Shown here: positions 44,933-52,194 of the stretch, piece by piece
How the letters are laid out: each line of letters begins with the position of its first letter
Position numbering within the stretch: the first letter of the stretch is position 1
Assembly (NCBI GenBank): GCA_016748015.1
Contig: JAAOMT010000144.1
Location: 86,363-138,556, forward strand
Length of the DNA: 52,194 nt
Direction of reading: 5' to 3'
Source of the DNA: Geosiphon pyriformis
Lineage: Eukaryota; Glomeromycota; Glomeromycetes; Archaeosporales; Geosiphonaceae
Notes under the pieces: generated by a model
Seen by the model: only the letters and a program-made list of their open reading frames with translations
Told to the model about the DNA's origin: nothing
Databases searched by the model: none
Made by a program: the position numbers and the translations under genes

Positions 44933-46612
44933 TCATTCAATATTACTAGGGCCCAAAGTTTTTCTTAATGGGACATGAGTGACAAATAAACTAACTAGAG
45001 TGGCAAACCCAGCCGTGGGAACACCAATTTTAAATACATTTTGCAGGGCAATTACATAGGCATGAATTATAGGGTCTCTAATATCTTCGGGTAAGGTCCT
45101 TACAAACTCTATAGAATTCATGACTTGATCCAGGGGAATGTCTTCAGGTAAAAAATTTAACAAGCTACTTTCTAAAGAATTATTGAAAATCGCCCCACAA
45201 ATGGCAAGTCCAAAAATACCACCAACGCTCCGAAAGAAGGTAACTAATGTGGTAACAATTGCGATATCTTTATAATTCACAGATGATTGTGGTGATAAGA
45301 AGGCAGTTTGTAAAGAACATCCAAGACCAGCGCCGACAAGCCACATATAAGCTATTGCTTGAAGCTGATTTGTAGTCTCATTAAAAGTTCCCATCAATCC
45401 GCAACCAACGGCAATTGCTGCATACCCAAAAGTAATCCAGCCACGATATTCACCACTCATGCTGGCGGAAAAACCGGACCCTAAAGAAAGTATAAGCATT
45501 CCAGCCAAATAAGGGATTAATTGCAGTCCAGCTTCAGTTGCACCTTGGCCTTTAACCGCTTGAAAATAAAGTGGAATGTAAAATATGGCACCAGTGTATG
45601 GAATACCGATGGCAAAATTGGCAATAAATGAAAGTAGCACGTTCCTAATCTTGAAAAGATGAGATGATATTGTGGGCTCAACTGCTATTCGAAGTTGGAT
45701 AAATATAAATAATAGGGTAAGCAAGAGACCGATAACGAGCAAAGAGATAATTTTCGGCGAGTTCCAGGCGTATTTACTGCCTCCCCAGTTAAGTGGTAAA
45801 AGGATAGCAATAAAAGCAGCGAAGAAAACTATTGTCCCAAGGTAATCGACGCGATATAAATTCGCTTTAAATGAGCCGTAAACGTGTGGGAGATTCAATA
45901 ATTTGGCTGTAACTAAAATTGCCAATAAGCCTAATGGAATGTTGATGTAGAATGCCCATCTCCAAGATGCTTGATCTGTCAAAATTCCACCTACAAACGG
46001 CCCGACGACAGAAGAAATTGCAAATGTTCCAGTAATAATTCCTTGATATTTTCCGCGTTGGCTCAAGGGTACAATATCAGTAATAATGATGTTGACTAAA
46101 GAAATGATCCCGCCACATCCAACACCAGCAACGCCACGGCTTACAATTAAAAAAGTCATATTAGGTGCTGCACCACACATGACTGAGCCAATTATAAAGG
46201 CCTCAATGGCGAACAGAAAGACAAATTTTCTTCCAAATATGTCCGAAAGTTTTCCATACAACGGTTGTGAGGCTGTAGAGCTAAGATAATACGCGGTGCC
46301 TACCCAGGCTATATCTGACAATGCATTGAATTCAGATGCAATTTTGGGTAATGCTATTGAAACAATAGTCGAGTCCAAAGCTGCAAGAAATAATGCCAAT
46401 ACAAGACCGAGCATTAAGATAGTTCGTTCTTTAGTGGAAGTCTCGATTGTTTGATCGTTAACAGGTTCACTAGGTTTGAGAGGTTTATGGTTTATCGTGT
46501 CATTTTTGATATATCCGGGAAGATTCGTTCTTGCCTCGTTTGAGGAATAATTTCGAATGTTGTTTTGGATTTGAAGTAATCGTTCAGTTTCATTGCTTTT
46601 TGATGGTGACAT
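44933..46612 (-). CDS. MFS antiporter, DHA2-type (14 TM), third paralogue
   Basis: 559 residues from the ATG at 46612. The open frame extends 17 codons further, but only through a GTG, and this ATG places the dileucine ETERLL at residues 8-13 exactly as in the two paralogues, so I take it as the start. Motifs: D1 LDSTIVSIALP (79-89), motif A GKLSDIFGRK (120-129), SRGVAGVGCGGIISL, antiporter motif C FAISSVVGPFVGG, and WRWAFYINIPLG. The C-terminus VPLRKTLGP is shared. It is closer to the gene at 2521 than to that at 22950: EPVNDQT ahead of TM1 and SEFNALSDI after it are nearly identical. Intact, single exon, convergent towards the LINE cluster. The expected role is proton-coupled export or vacuolar transport. 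Substrate is unknown. Confidence 0.93.
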   Translation of the reverse strand: MSPSKSNETERLLQIQNNIRNYSSNEARTNLPGYIKNDTINHKPLKPSEPVNDQTIETSTKERTILMLGLVLALFLAALDSTIVSIALPKIASEFNALSDIAWVGTAYYLSSTASQPLYGKLSDIFGRKFVFLFAIEAFIIGSVMCGAAPNMTFLIVSRGVAGVGCGGIISLVNIIITDIVPLSQRGKYQGIITGTFAISSVVGPFVGGILTDQASWRWAFYINIPLGLLAILVTAKLLNLPHVYGSFKANLYRVDYLGTIVFFAAFIAILLPLNWGGSKYAWNSPKIISLLVIGLLLTLLFIFIQLRIAVEPTISSHLFKIRNVLLSFIANFAIGIPYTGAIFYIPLYFQAVKGQGATEAGLQLIPYLAGMLILSLGSGFSASMSGEYRGWITFGYAAIAVGCGLMGTFNETTNQLQAIAYMWLVGAGLGCSLQTAFLSPQSSVNYKDIAIVTTLVTFFRSVGGIFGLAICGAIFNNSLESSLLNFLPEDIPLDQVMNSIEFVRTLPEDIRDPIIHAYVIALQNVFKIGVPTAGFATLVSLFVTHVPLRKTLGPSNIE

Positions 46613-48562
46613 TTTTTTTTGTTTCGTTGTAAAATAATAGGACTTTAGAAATAAACAACTCACAGAGAAGAAAGGCTAATCTTTAAGAATATGCTTTTAT
46701 TCTTAAAATTTTTTCAATGTTTTTCATGAATTCTTTGTTCAGATAAATCTGTTCTTTGTCAAAAAAATTAAGGAAGTTCTGACAATGTTTTTGTGCCTCA
46801 TTATTTATATCGCTCGAGGTCTATTTTGATTGTGTTTTTAATTTTGATTTAATCGGCAACTCAAAAAAAAAAAAAATGTATGCAAGATGGCGTTGAATGC
46901 ACTTCTGAACATTGTTATCGTGAGAGATTTGTTTTGCATCGGATAAAATTGTTATAACTCGAAAAAAATCCGAAAAATCGAAACCATTCGATGTAGAGTT
47001 GATTTATTCCCAATTAAATGAATGTAAATCGAGGCGAAAATATCAGTAGATTATGGACCATACGAAATCTCTCAATCGCTGATATATTCTCGCTTTGAAA
47101 TGAGCTTTAATTAATAAAATAGGCAAATATATATTAAAAAGTTGAGAGAAAACTTAAGTTTTACCAACTAATTTTAACATAAAATGTTAAAACTAACCTT
47201 AAAAATGTGAAGGTTTCTTCAAAAGATATCGATTCCTTGGTTATTTAGAATTAGGTTAACGGGTTTTTTCTGTAAACGATCTGGCCTAAAACTCAGAACA
47301 AGATCTTTAAACCTATCCAAACAATAACTTTTCGCCATCTTGAGTTTTGACAATCAAAAAGTTTTAAAACTAAATTTCAGGAATTTTTTTTTTCAAAATA
47401 AATCGATTGAAATCTTATTACAACAATGAAAGTTTTCAATATTGTGACAAACTTTAAAATTAAACATTCTAGCTTTTTGTGATCAAGATTTTTAGATGTA
47501 TACCAATGAGACGATCAAAAGAAGACGCTCGATCGAGAAAACGCAGATACAATTATGTTATTTTCGGACTTTATGAAATATTTTCTAGAAAAGGGGAATC
47601 CTTTTGAACTGAAAATCTTTATTATATTAAGTAAAATTCATTCAAATCATAATTTTTTGTTTCAAATAATTAAATATAAACCTTCATACCAATGATAAGA
47701 TATCCTTGTTTATTTTCAAATAAAATTTAAAACAAAATTTAAATATAAAAATTTTCTATTTATGTAAACGTAAACTTGATCGGGGAATTAAAGCTCTTTT
47801 TCTGAAAGTCAACAGATAAAAAACCTTTTAATCTCTTTTTTCAACGGAAGTTTTCAACTTGAAATTCATATGCTTTCAATACAATAATAATACAAAGATA
47901 TGTTATCACAGGATTTCAATTTTATTATGATAACTCCTGAAATTAAAAAAAAACTTGGGCCAGATGATAAATAAAAGATTTGAAATCTAAAAAAGAAAAG
48001 AAAAGAAAAGAAAAGAAAAGAAAAGAAATAGTATCGAAGTTTTCAAAATCGGAAAAATCTAAAAATAAAATTAATTTGAATTTAGCTCATTTTTAAAGGC
48101 ATGGTTTTTTGAATCGTTATTTACCACTTACTTCTAACCTCCTGTCTTAACTAACTAGCCGCAATGGAATTTGTTTTTTAATGACATTCCTTTTTTTATG
48201 TTTTCCCTAAATAAAATATTAAAAAGAAAATTTCCCCCGATTACAAACAAACTGAAATCATTTAAGCAGAAAATTATTCTAATCGCCAAGCCACAGAAAA
48301 AAAAATAATGCCATGTGAATATTTAATTTCAGGTTGAAAAATGAAAATGACATAATTTATGATATAATCAAGGAATATCATGGTTTTATTTGAATCATTT
48401 AAAATACATAGGATACAAACACTACAAAGATCACTAATAATAAAAAGAAATTAGTAGCTTTTGTTTTGTTTATGTATAGTTATTTTATGATCGAACTTTT
48501 TAATGAAAAAGCATTTTTTTGGCGATTGTACATAAAATAATATGAAATTTGCAAGATTAAAT
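46613..48562. other. Intergenic region upstream of the third MFS gene
   Basis: About 1.95 kb without a supported gene. It holds the transporter's promoter at its left end and an (AAAAG)n run. Nothing else is recognised. Confidence 0.4.
47991..48027. repeat. (AAAAG)n microsatellite
   Basis: About seven AAAAG units. Confidence 0.9.
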
Positions 48563-49083: not shown

Positions 49084-49392
49084 CTGAAAAAAGTAAATTT
49101 ATGACATAAAATTTATTACTCTGTTATATTCAAATTTTTGCAAAGTAAATTTCGTACTATTAAAGCAAATTTATTGATAAAATTTTTCCAAGAGTCTTTT
49201 AATATTCCACCTTTAAAAGAAACGTAATCGTATGACTTCCTTTTTGCTATTGAAATTATAAAAAAATGTGGCAAGCTCACTTAATATCCCAAAACTAATG
49301 AAGAAAAGTTTTTCTGGGTATACGAGACGCAAAAACCAAGTGGATGGCTATGTTCATGTAGTCTCAATAGATCCTAGAATTCGCACTCCATT

Positions 49393-49394
49393 TA
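49393..49394. repeat. TA target-site duplication, left
   Basis: TA immediately before the left terminal repeat. It pairs with 51657-51658. Removing the element and one TA restores the Fanzor frame across the junction. Confidence 0.85.
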
Positions 49395-49417
49395 CAGTCA
49401 GACCTCCATAAAAGAAC
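49395..49417 (+). repeat. Left terminal inverted repeat of the pogo-like element
   Basis: 23 bases starting CAGTCAGACC. It matches the inverted right end (51634-51656) with one mismatch (C/T). Confidence 0.85.
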
Positions 49418-49696
49418 CCTCGATAAAAGAACAACCTCTTACAAAGAACATTTTTTTATAGAACCAATTGATTAATTAACAATTTTCCCTTTATATAAGA
49501 ACAATCTATAAAGGAACAAGAACATAATTTTATCAAAAATTTATTCGAAATTTACCTTCATATAAGAACAAATATCACGTGCTAGATGTTAATTGGTAAT
49601 TGGGAAAAGAGTTAGAACGTATTGAATTGATTTCATCCTAACTTTCTTTTAAATCGATTTAAATTGGACTTACTCTTTTTAATCTTGTCTGTTTTC

Positions 49697-51262
49697 ATGT
49701 ACAGCCACTTAATCCCTATTGTATTCCAATTCAAGCTTGCTAAAACCAAATCTAATATTATCATTATAGGCACATTTTCTAACAGACTTGCTAAATTATC
49801 ACCTTTATTCAAAAAACAAAAATTACCGGCAGTTAATGATGCTCTTCATAAAGAAATTTGTCAATATACCAAAAATCACTATGGCACGAAACATGATGAT
49901 ATTGTAGCTTACTTCAATCATAAATATCCAGAACTTCATATTTCTCGTGTCTCCAAGATAATCAAAGAGCATGCAAAGTGGTTGAATATTGGAATTGATG
50001 AAATCTCAGAAAGATCTATTCGACACAAAAGCGTTAAATTTCCATTATTAGACCAAGCTTTAAGTTATTGGGTAGAACAAGTAACTGCAGCCACTATTGA
50101 ATTCAATGATCAACTAATTATAGAGAAAGGAAAAGAATTTGCCAAACTTCTTGGTATGCACGAAAATGAAATGCAATTCTTAAATGGATGGGTTCAAAAA
50201 TTCAAAAAACCAAACCAGTTACGTGTTTACCAATTTCATGGTGAAGCAGGAAGTGTATCAACTGAAAGTTTACCAGAAGAAAGAAGAAAATTAAAAACCA
50301 TTATATCTGAATTTGATCCTGCTGACATATATAATGCTGATGAAACAGGATTATTTTTTCGTATGAGACCAAATCAAACACTTGCAAAATGTCAAAATGC
50401 AGGAAAAAAATTGGTATATTATATTTACCAATTTTTATCGTTATATATTATTGTTATATTAAATTAATTGGGTTTTTTATAGGATAAATCTTGGATTACA
50501 ATTCTTCTTGCTACAAATTCAACTGGATCTCACAAATTGCAACCTTTAGTAATTAAACATGCAAAAAATCCAAGATGCCTTAAAGGAATTAATACTTCCA
50601 AACTACCAGTAATTTACAAATTCAATTCCAAAGCGCGGATGCACTCAGATATATGGAAAGCATGGCTCAAATATATAAATGAAGGCTTTCGAATTCAAAA
50701 TCAGCACTTTTAGTTAATAATGCAACTTCTCATCATACTCAAATCGGAGAAGATTCATTCCAATTAACCAATATTACTTTGCACTATTTTCCTTCAAATA
50801 CAACATCACATCTTCAACCAATGGATGCTGCATTATCAAATCTTTCAAAGGCAAATATAAGCATTTATATTGTCAACATATTTTACATCAATTTGAACAA
50901 AAAATTAATATTGAACAGTTAAGTAATATAATATATACAGTATTATTATCATTATATATTATATAATTTTATCTAATATTAATTTATTTTTTAGAAATAA
51001 ATTAAACATAAAACAAGCAATTGATTATGTTGTTCAATCATGGTTTCAAGTAACACCTGTTACAATTCAAACCTGTTGGCAAAAAACGGATATTCTTTTC
51101 TATAATCAAGAATTAGAAATTCAAGAATCCGAAACATCAATTGCTATGGATATATTCAACAATTTACCATCAAATGCACAACAATTGTTCAAAAATCTCG
51201 AAGATTATACTGTAGCAGTTGATGAATTATTGGCAACTGAAAATATTCTTGATGATAATTAA
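49697..51262 (+). pseudogene. pogo-like transposase (CENP-B/Tc5 helix-turn-helix, DDE_1), decayed
   Basis: Exon 1 (open from about 49664, first ATG 49697) encodes a helix-turn-helix (HKEICQYTKNHYG...HISRVSKIIKEH), a Tc5-type HTH (FAKLLGMHENEMQFLNGWVQKF) and the first catalytic Asp in IYNADETGLFFRM (50339-50341). An intron of about 69 bp (50414-50482) leads to SWITILLATNSTGSHKLQPL. After a frameshift near 50690 comes LLVNNATSHH, where the second catalytic Asp (LLVDNA) is Asn at 50716-50718, then FPSNTTSHLQPMDA with the third acidic position. Another shift near 50830, a second intron of about 72 bp (50923-50994) and a tail with VQSWFQVTPVTIQTCW follow. The stop is at 51260-51262. Asp-to-Asn plus frameshifts make it inactive. 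Confidence 0.75.
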
Positions 51263-51489
51263 ATTGTAGATATGGTTTTAGCCGATGCTCAAATTGAAAC
51301 CAATACAATTAATGACTCGGAAAAAGAATTAGAAGAATCTCCACCTGCTATAATTACAATTACAGAAGCATTAGATTTGAAGAGCAATTAGCAGAAGAAA
51401 ATTTTGGTATAGAAAACCAAAATTACTTAATAAAAAATTATATGAATACGAAAAAATGAAGGAAGATTCTAAAAAACAGGTAACAATTA

Positions 51490-51500
51490 ATCAATATTTT

Positions 51501-51533
<33 letters not shown>

Positions 51534-51540
51534 TGATTGA
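51490..51540. repeat. (AAT)n tract inside the pogo-like element
   Basis: About nine AAT/TAA units between the transposase stop and the right end. Confidence 0.8.
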
Positions 51541-51633
51541 TTTAATAAATAAATATAATTTATTTGATAATAATTATAAAACTTTATAATAGAACACCTC
51601 TAAAATGGAACATAATTTGCATGTCCCAACTGT

Positions 51634-51656
51634 GTTCTTTTATAGAGGTCTGACTG
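51634..51656 (-). repeat. Right terminal inverted repeat of the pogo-like element
   Basis: Reverse complement of the left end with one mismatch; TA (51657-51658) follows. Confidence 0.85.
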
Positions 51657-52194
51657 TACATGGTATTCTCCAACAAAAGATGTGGGCAAATAGGATCTTG
51701 TGACATCAGTCATATTGTTCGCCTCTGCAAATTTATGAATGACCTTTGCTCAAAGAAAGATAAATTAAATACCTGCTCAAAACATAAGAAACCTAAAGCC
51801 AGAAAATTAGAAAAGGCGATTACGTGCATGCATCAAAAGATCTTATACTCGCAAACAGAAAGGCTGTCACAGTTTTCATTCACGAATTTGATGCTATCGT
51901 CATTCCTCCCTTTGAGGTATCGGACATGGTGGTCGAAAAGCACGCGAAAAACAGTTAGAAAGATGATATGCTGATTTCGTCAACGTCTGATCATCAAGGC
52001 AGAGTACCGAATTATCATCCAAAATGAGGCTTATTTGTAAAACGCCGGAATTTGTTATGGATAGAGATGAAAATAGCGCTCGGAGGATCTTCCTCCGGAC
52101 ATTGCTTGATGGAGCAATGCTTATTAATGATGTTCATGTGAATTAATAAATCTTTGTGACTCCTTCCCCATTTAGCATATATTTTAATTAATTT

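Follow-up and report, generated by a model that had tools for sequence, protein, structure and literature searches.

The broken reading frame near the end of this window raises the questions of what kind of gene it came from, what element carried that gene, and how a second transposon came to lie inside it. The window, meaning the whole stretch of DNA analysed, comprises the final 52,194 bases of contig C112 in an assembly of 124.7 Mb and 406 contigs. Fanzors are eukaryotic nucleases guided by RNA to the DNA they cut, and a first-pass annotation had described a decayed one interrupted by a pogo transposon at a TA within the RuvC-I region. The analysis reported here indicates that the relic is very probably a 3' remnant of a dead IS607-type, Fanzor2-like transposon, cut later by pogo at that TA. 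The features concerned are as follows.

49269-49394, plus strand: left half of the Fanzor relic, to RuvC-I (paralogue match starts; DNA matches; tblastn with paralogue L015, E 5.8e-5)
49364-49393, plus strand: SIDPRIRTPF (RuvC-I), with the Asp codon at 49370-49372; DPR here, DPG in relatives
49393-49394, no strand: left TA target duplication (sequence; paralogue alignments span the joined site with a single TA)
49395-51656, plus strand: decayed pogo-type DNA transposon (terminal inverted repeats, transposase domains, genomic copies)
51657-51658, no strand: right TA target duplication (sequence)
51657-52115, plus strand: right half of the Fanzor relic, rest of RuvC-I through RuvC-III, distributed among the three frames (DNA homology to paralogues; tblastn)
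51905-51928, plus strand: RuvC-II segment PPFEVSDM (direct reading, tblastn)
52026-52028, plus strand: displaced (Ealt-type) glutamate codon in QNEAY (tblastn; signature of PMC10711439)
52060-52092, plus strand: RuvC-III segment DRDENSARRIF (direct reading, tblastn)
52113-52129, plus strand: possible remnant of the family right end, remainder missing (17 nt; its score of 24 falls short of the best shuffle, 29, and is not significant alone)

Elsewhere in the window, the minus strand at 44933-46663 holds a 576-aa ORF that looks by eye like a major-facilitator transporter, and G+C ranges from 0.18 to 0.39 among 5-kb blocks of positions 1-50000.

A pogo element inside a broken reading frame

The interrupting element is exactly 2,262 bp long, with TA flanking both ends. 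Its terminal repeats are near-identical (CAGTCAGACCTC[CT]ATAAAAGAAC), and an inverted-repeat search, in which the flanking TA is counted, returns 30-nt arms at 49388-49417 and 51634-51663 with 93% complementarity. Pfam matches of its pieces to HTH_Tnp_Tc5 (E 1.6e-7) and DDE_1 (E 8.4e-15 and 1.2e-7) identify it as a pogo/Tc5-type transposon; the membership features of a pogo element, TA duplication, terminal inverted repeats and a DDE_1 transposase, are all present. The scoring of 40 out of 150 candidates in the genome gave at least 69 match rows for this element, and among the matches listed the long copies are 87-94% identical and some short pieces 97-100%.

When the two flanks are joined and used as a query, one alignment spans the junction and reaches 20 bases or more to either side of it in 18 of 26 distinct paralogue loci (30 locus records minus four second cuts of the same place). 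The translation of L015 is collinear with both flanks by tblastn, its residues 2-18 corresponding to 49343-49393 and residues 20-86 to 51660-51860, with residue 19 the codon split by the insertion. The split frame reads SIDPRIRTPF up to the element and TWYSPTKDVGK, then a stop, beyond it. The junction-crossing paralogues and the collinear L015 bear out the earlier statement that the frame is continuous once the element and one TA are removed, and the placement of the insertion precisely at a TA inside RuvC-I stands after a check of element coordinates, terminal repeats and target duplication. An uninterrupted paralogue might have exposed the two parts as unrelated; those found instead cross the joined site, and they already refute the idea that pogo and its flanks are a chance juxtaposition with no insertion into one gene. 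The exact TA duplication, the terminal repeats and the protein match to both flanks likewise oppose that idea, no point in its favour was found, and its probability is negligible. Because pogo sits inside the gene it is the younger of the two, as had been proposed. Between the Fanzor flanks and 17 paralogues the mean K2P is 0.162, and comparison of this value with the 87-94% identity of the long pogo copies listed yields ages that agree with a later arrival of pogo.

The interrupted relic is itself only part of a gene. Since 14 of 16 left-flank matches start at 49255-49273, the window copy lacks its 5' (amino) half; no right-flank match extends beyond 52115, and the contig ends 48 bases beyond the stop at 52146. 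The right half is detected by tblastn with L015 (E 7e-25) and with a second paralogue, L021 (E 1.5e-16), and a protein search with L021 also recovers it as C112:138138-138296 (E 9e-7). The zinc ribbon is gone, as first described: between 52034 and 52048 the window copy has 13 nt where the L021 query has residues 114-138, and the Fanzor-type glutamate of QNEAY is retained despite this loss. All three RuvC motifs reported earlier are present in their differing frames, but one of them calls for another reading. The published Fanzor signature combines DPG at RuvC-I with a glutamate shifted to a site six residues ahead of the zinc ribbon's first CxxC (PMC10711439), which is the position of QNEAY here; PPFEVSDM therefore marks the RuvC-II region, but the catalytic residue is probably not its own glutamate.

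Family identity and the carrier element

Scanned separately in Pfam, the window pieces of 32 and 104 aa gave no TnpB or Fanzor match, so that the profile search proposed earlier for the two parts did not recognise either. The Fanzor assignment rests on paralogues rather than on profile matches of the relic: these match both flanks as DNA and as protein and hit zinc-ribbon or TnpB models, and through them the original identification is sustained. Searched as DNA against the genome, the left flank gave 40 match rows and the right flank 57, window copy included, and the zinc-ribbon model PF07282 has at least 67 genomic matches. Eight paralogue pieces were scanned in Pfam. Three match PF07282, the C4 zinc ribbon of TnpB type that Fanzors carry between RuvC-II and RuvC-III (L021, E 9.4e-14; L022, E 1.1e-11; L029, E 2.5e-20), one, an N-terminal piece of L029, matches HTH_OrfB_IS605 (E 9.5e-6), and the remaining four gave nothing relevant. 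The NCBIfam model guided_TnpB matches three of three pieces at E 2e-7 to 2.8e-17, all under its full-length cut-off. The best match of C-terminal pieces among solved structures is the TnpB-like protein L79 (PDB 9b0l; E 3.9e-11 and 4.7e-9), which we take to be the Fanzor2 of a mimivirus IS607 element. Von Willebrand factor, also among the PDB matches (E 5e-4), was taken for chance and disregarded, and the RuvC-I piece matched no solved structure.

The published signature recurs across the family. A RuvC-I pattern was matched in 12 of 42 loci, with DPG in 10 of those 12, and a ribbon-start pattern in six of 42, all six with glutamate six residues before CxxC even though the pattern also admitted D, K or G there; both counts are minima, because the patterns are strict and the copies decayed. 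The window copy has DPR in place of DPG and keeps the displaced glutamate. A second, divergent Fanzor-like subfamily, represented by L029 (C354:384300-388600), L003 and L004, carries PPFNASQ and DRDVN; at the DPG position the residues are QP in L029, and in L003 a stop codon precedes P, so the catalytic aspartate seems to have been lost in both.

The search for full-length paralogues, likewise suggested in the first-pass annotation, found none in the genome matches listed. No intact Fanzor copy occurs among at least 67 zinc-ribbon matches or at least 149 protein matches (150 scored of 239 candidates); among the protein matches listed, no other covers the full 170-aa query, and the longest stop-free frame is 177 aa. 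Nor was a full-length frame seen in the 26 paralogue loci and three further loci. These searches read single frames, in which an intron-split gene would not appear as one frame.

Better-preserved copies share one order over approximately 1.6-1.9 kb: a left end, an IS607 serine-recombinase relic, the Fanzor, and a right end sharp at ATCCG. The left end recurs as YGATGAAAAGATTTGCTTAATAATGCC, and the family ends can be summarised as YGATGAAAAGATTTGC and ATCCG. Both are alignable in 12 loci, at a spacing of 1,560-1,926 nt in nine and 919-1,381 nt in three. The lead to the recombinase was an IS607 motif, by which seven frames were picked and five of the seven then profile-scanned. All five gave weak matches to NF033518 (IS607) in NCBIfam (E 0.018-0.18, under the full-length cut-off) and nothing in Pfam, and the matches are partly circular because the motif had selected the frames. 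An independent genome search with the Pfam Resolvase model identified three places above cut-off. Two of these, L048 and L050, share an identical stretch of 1,089 bp; in L048 the recombinase is followed by a Fanzor and a right end. NF033518 matches L049 (E 1.1e-8) and L048 (E 1.2e-7 and 3e-5), each under the full-length cut-off, at profile positions 89-142, 127-184 and 50-74 of 187, which combine to 50-74 and 89-184. Three of six L048/L049 pieces match IS607 in NCBIfam and the other three, all from L048, gave nothing; in Pfam, Resolvase reached no better than E 0.042 and 0.0096, under its cut-off, in two pieces. The nearest solved structure to one recombinase piece is the catalytic domain of ISC1926 TnpA (E 0.086).

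Several recombinase loci show peculiarities of their own. In L048 (260-387), approximately 130 nt separate the left end from IS607 profile position 50 and the first ~50 positions are unmatched, so that the usual N-terminal DNA-binding domain may be absent from the recombinase or replaced by a different one. The stretch shared by L048 (C397:2200-4700) and L050 (C310:449700-450857), 1,089 bp at 100% identity, reaches the end of C310 and is possibly an assembly duplication or haplotype overlap. L018 is a rearranged copy in which the recombinase (1603-1910, oriented) is inverted relative to the Fanzor. In L022 a single open frame joins a recombinase piece to the N-terminal part of the Fanzor and had suggested a TnpA-Fanzor fusion, which was set aside because the recombinase frame of L048 ends at a stop and the Fanzor N-terminus lies in another frame. 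ORF-less "ghost" loci of the Spizellomyces kind were also considered. Among 40 right-end matches, 15 seemingly without Fanzor were picked and 14 examined (C283:638594 was left out); since Fanzor or TnpA sequence lies upstream of the right end in every one of the 14, they are eroded copies rather than ghosts.

IS607 elements have neither inverted repeats nor target duplications (PMC6188088). In this family, a search of 26 loci for the 11-nt right-end motif in inverted orientation, with one mismatch allowed, found none. Of 28 right ends, 20 close with the dinucleotide CG and four others with TG or CA; at the left end the dinucleotide is CG in four of 15 and TG or CA in six of 15, leaving CG as a candidate crossover dinucleotide. 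Judged by its ends and recombinase relics, the carrier is an IS607-type transposon, a bacterial type of element, with a predicted Fanzor2-like nuclease, the name Fanzor2-like following from the type of carrier.

Right end, past selection and rival readings

Substitution patterns by codon position distinguish two phases in the family's past. Group A comprises nine copies near the window copy and group B five more distant ones from the zinc-ribbon search. L007 and L009, with a B-like body and no alignable right end, were left out, an omission that favours a conserved right end, and L032-L047 were excluded too, since right-end similarity was how most of them had been chosen. Differences at codon positions 1, 2 and 3 are as follows.

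C-terminal body, A-B: 0.200, 0.188, 0.437
C-terminal body, A-A: 0.152, 0.182, 0.189
C-terminal body, window-A: 0.128, 0.159, 0.167
C-terminal body, window-B: 0.251, 0.115, 0.443
Last 15 codons, A-B: 0.195, 0.249, 0.223 (18 nt after the stop: 0.206)
Last 15 codons, A-A: 0.190, 0.177, 0.181 (18 nt after the stop: 0.168)

The excess at position 3 between groups A and B, together with near-even values within group A and between it and the window copy, indicates a protein under selection while the subfamilies diverged, followed by near-neutral decay in the window subfamily. The last 15 codons behave otherwise. In all five group B copies, third-position difference is lower there (0.131-0.337) than in the body (0.422-0.534, measured against L021); the copy pairs are not independent, and no p-value is attached to the contrast. 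Such a constraint fits a nucleic-acid function overlapping the end of the ORF, whether an RNA or a transposase site. Of the conserved noncoding 3' end anticipated earlier as a mark of the guide RNA, the conservation was recovered, in the right end and the last 15 codons; it lies mostly before the stop, and an RNA structure was not supported. The hairpin drawn for the right end pairs in 87.7% of cells over 22 copies, but its covariation was equalled by 151 of 500 shuffles, the consensus fold from a first alignment of 14 copies contained no pair changed on both sides, and folding z-scores of four copies (-1.85 to +0.86) were unremarkable.

Two alternatives bear on this picture, one on the carrier and one on the right end. 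The relic could be a Fanzor1 borne by a eukaryotic DNA transposon, its recombinase pieces accidental neighbours; Fanzor1 is reported to be widely spread in fungi, particularly in incertae sedis species (PMC10432273), and the window copy is without a recombinase, tblastn having found no TnpA pieces in the window. Accident accords poorly, however, with the finding that 26 of 44 loci have recombinase pieces on the same strand as the Fanzor (tblastn, two query sources counted in) and with the repeated IS607 pairing. The missing inverted copy of the right-end motif also points away from such a transposon, as does the match to L79 as best in PDB, with none of the 16 chains listed named Fanzor. A Fanzor1 origin is thus improbable, and the IS607-type, Fanzor2-like carrier remains the preferred reading.

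Whether the right end of such a carrier also encoded a guide RNA is a closer matter. Covariation no higher than in shuffles, the lack of an Rfam match in three loci, and a conserved stretch mostly upstream of the stop codon all fit a right end that was a transposase binding site plus coding sequence and nothing more. Third positions in this stretch are nevertheless about as conserved as first and second positions, unlike those of the body (a binding site could have the same effect), and an RNA overlapping the 3' end of the nuclease gene is reported for GtFz1 and ISDra2 TnpB (PMC10432273). A right end with no guide RNA is accordingly given a probability appreciably below even, and the guide-RNA step in the life cycle proposed below is considered fairly probable.

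Proposed history and known counterparts

In the proposed life cycle, the living element would have encoded TnpA, a transposase of the serine-recombinase type, together with a Fanzor2-like RNA-guided nuclease. TnpA would have moved the element by way of a short dinucleotide, for which CG is the candidate, and without inverted repeats. To cut sites, Fanzor would have used an RNA that combined the 3' end of its own ORF with the element's right end and took its guide from flanking DNA. The domains, signatures, ends, insertion and decay pattern are observed in the sequences; nuclease activity, guide RNA and a role in spreading are all attributed by analogy with relatives in the literature. Pogo inserted later, at the TA in RuvC-I. 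A more extended scenario is held tentatively, at a little under an even chance: an undescribed eukaryotic IS607-Fanzor2 lineage that reached dozens of copies or more, split into subfamilies under protein selection, drew a guide RNA from the last ~15 codons and the 18-nt right end, and then became extinct and a target for pogo. If true, it would constitute a fossil record of the rise and fall of an RNA-guided nuclease transposon in one nuclear genome. Fanzors are mostly known from living copies, whereas this genome holds a fossil series: a recombinase-plus-Fanzor family whose ends can still be read, a subfamily in neutral decay, and distant subfamilies once selected as protein. A eukaryotic Fanzor is thereby tied to an IS607 recombinase, and its possible RNA-coding 3' end is testable in relatives with living copies.

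The pogo insertion itself is ordinary. TA duplication, terminal inverted repeats, HTH_Tnp_Tc5 and DDE_1 are shared with other pogo/Tc5 transposons, and apart from its decay this copy shows no notable difference. Among Fanzors, SpuFz1 of Spizellomyces punctatus is similar: it is multicopy, some of its copies are partial, its 3' RNA end is conserved, and its loci have received insertions of other elements, but it is a Fanzor1 with 30-nt inverted repeats and 19 full-length genes (PMC10432273); in the present family a recombinase is present, and neither inverted repeat nor full-length frame was found. IS607-family serine recombinases also occur in the genome of the yeast Saccharomyces kluyveri, as six recombinase genes for which the part of the text covered in PMC2715888 mentions no TnpB or Fanzor partner. 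Fanzor2 is described in the budding yeasts Ashbya, Eremothecium, Saccharomyces and Torulaspora (PMC3627910) and is said to be broadly present in fungi (PMC10432273). These are likewise Fanzor2 proteins of cellular eukaryotes, but the table of PMC3627910 gives one family for each, compared with dozens of relics and recombinase pieces here. IS607 elements with a recombinase, a Fanzor2 and no inverted repeats include ISvMimi_1 and _2 (Bao and Jurka, PMC3627910). The top solved-structure match, L79, is viral, in contrast to the many decayed copies here in a 124.7-Mb genome taken as nuclear and eukaryotic. The kind of element, an IS607-type transposon with a Fanzor2-like nuclease, is thus already known, and what appears to be new is the multicopy family.
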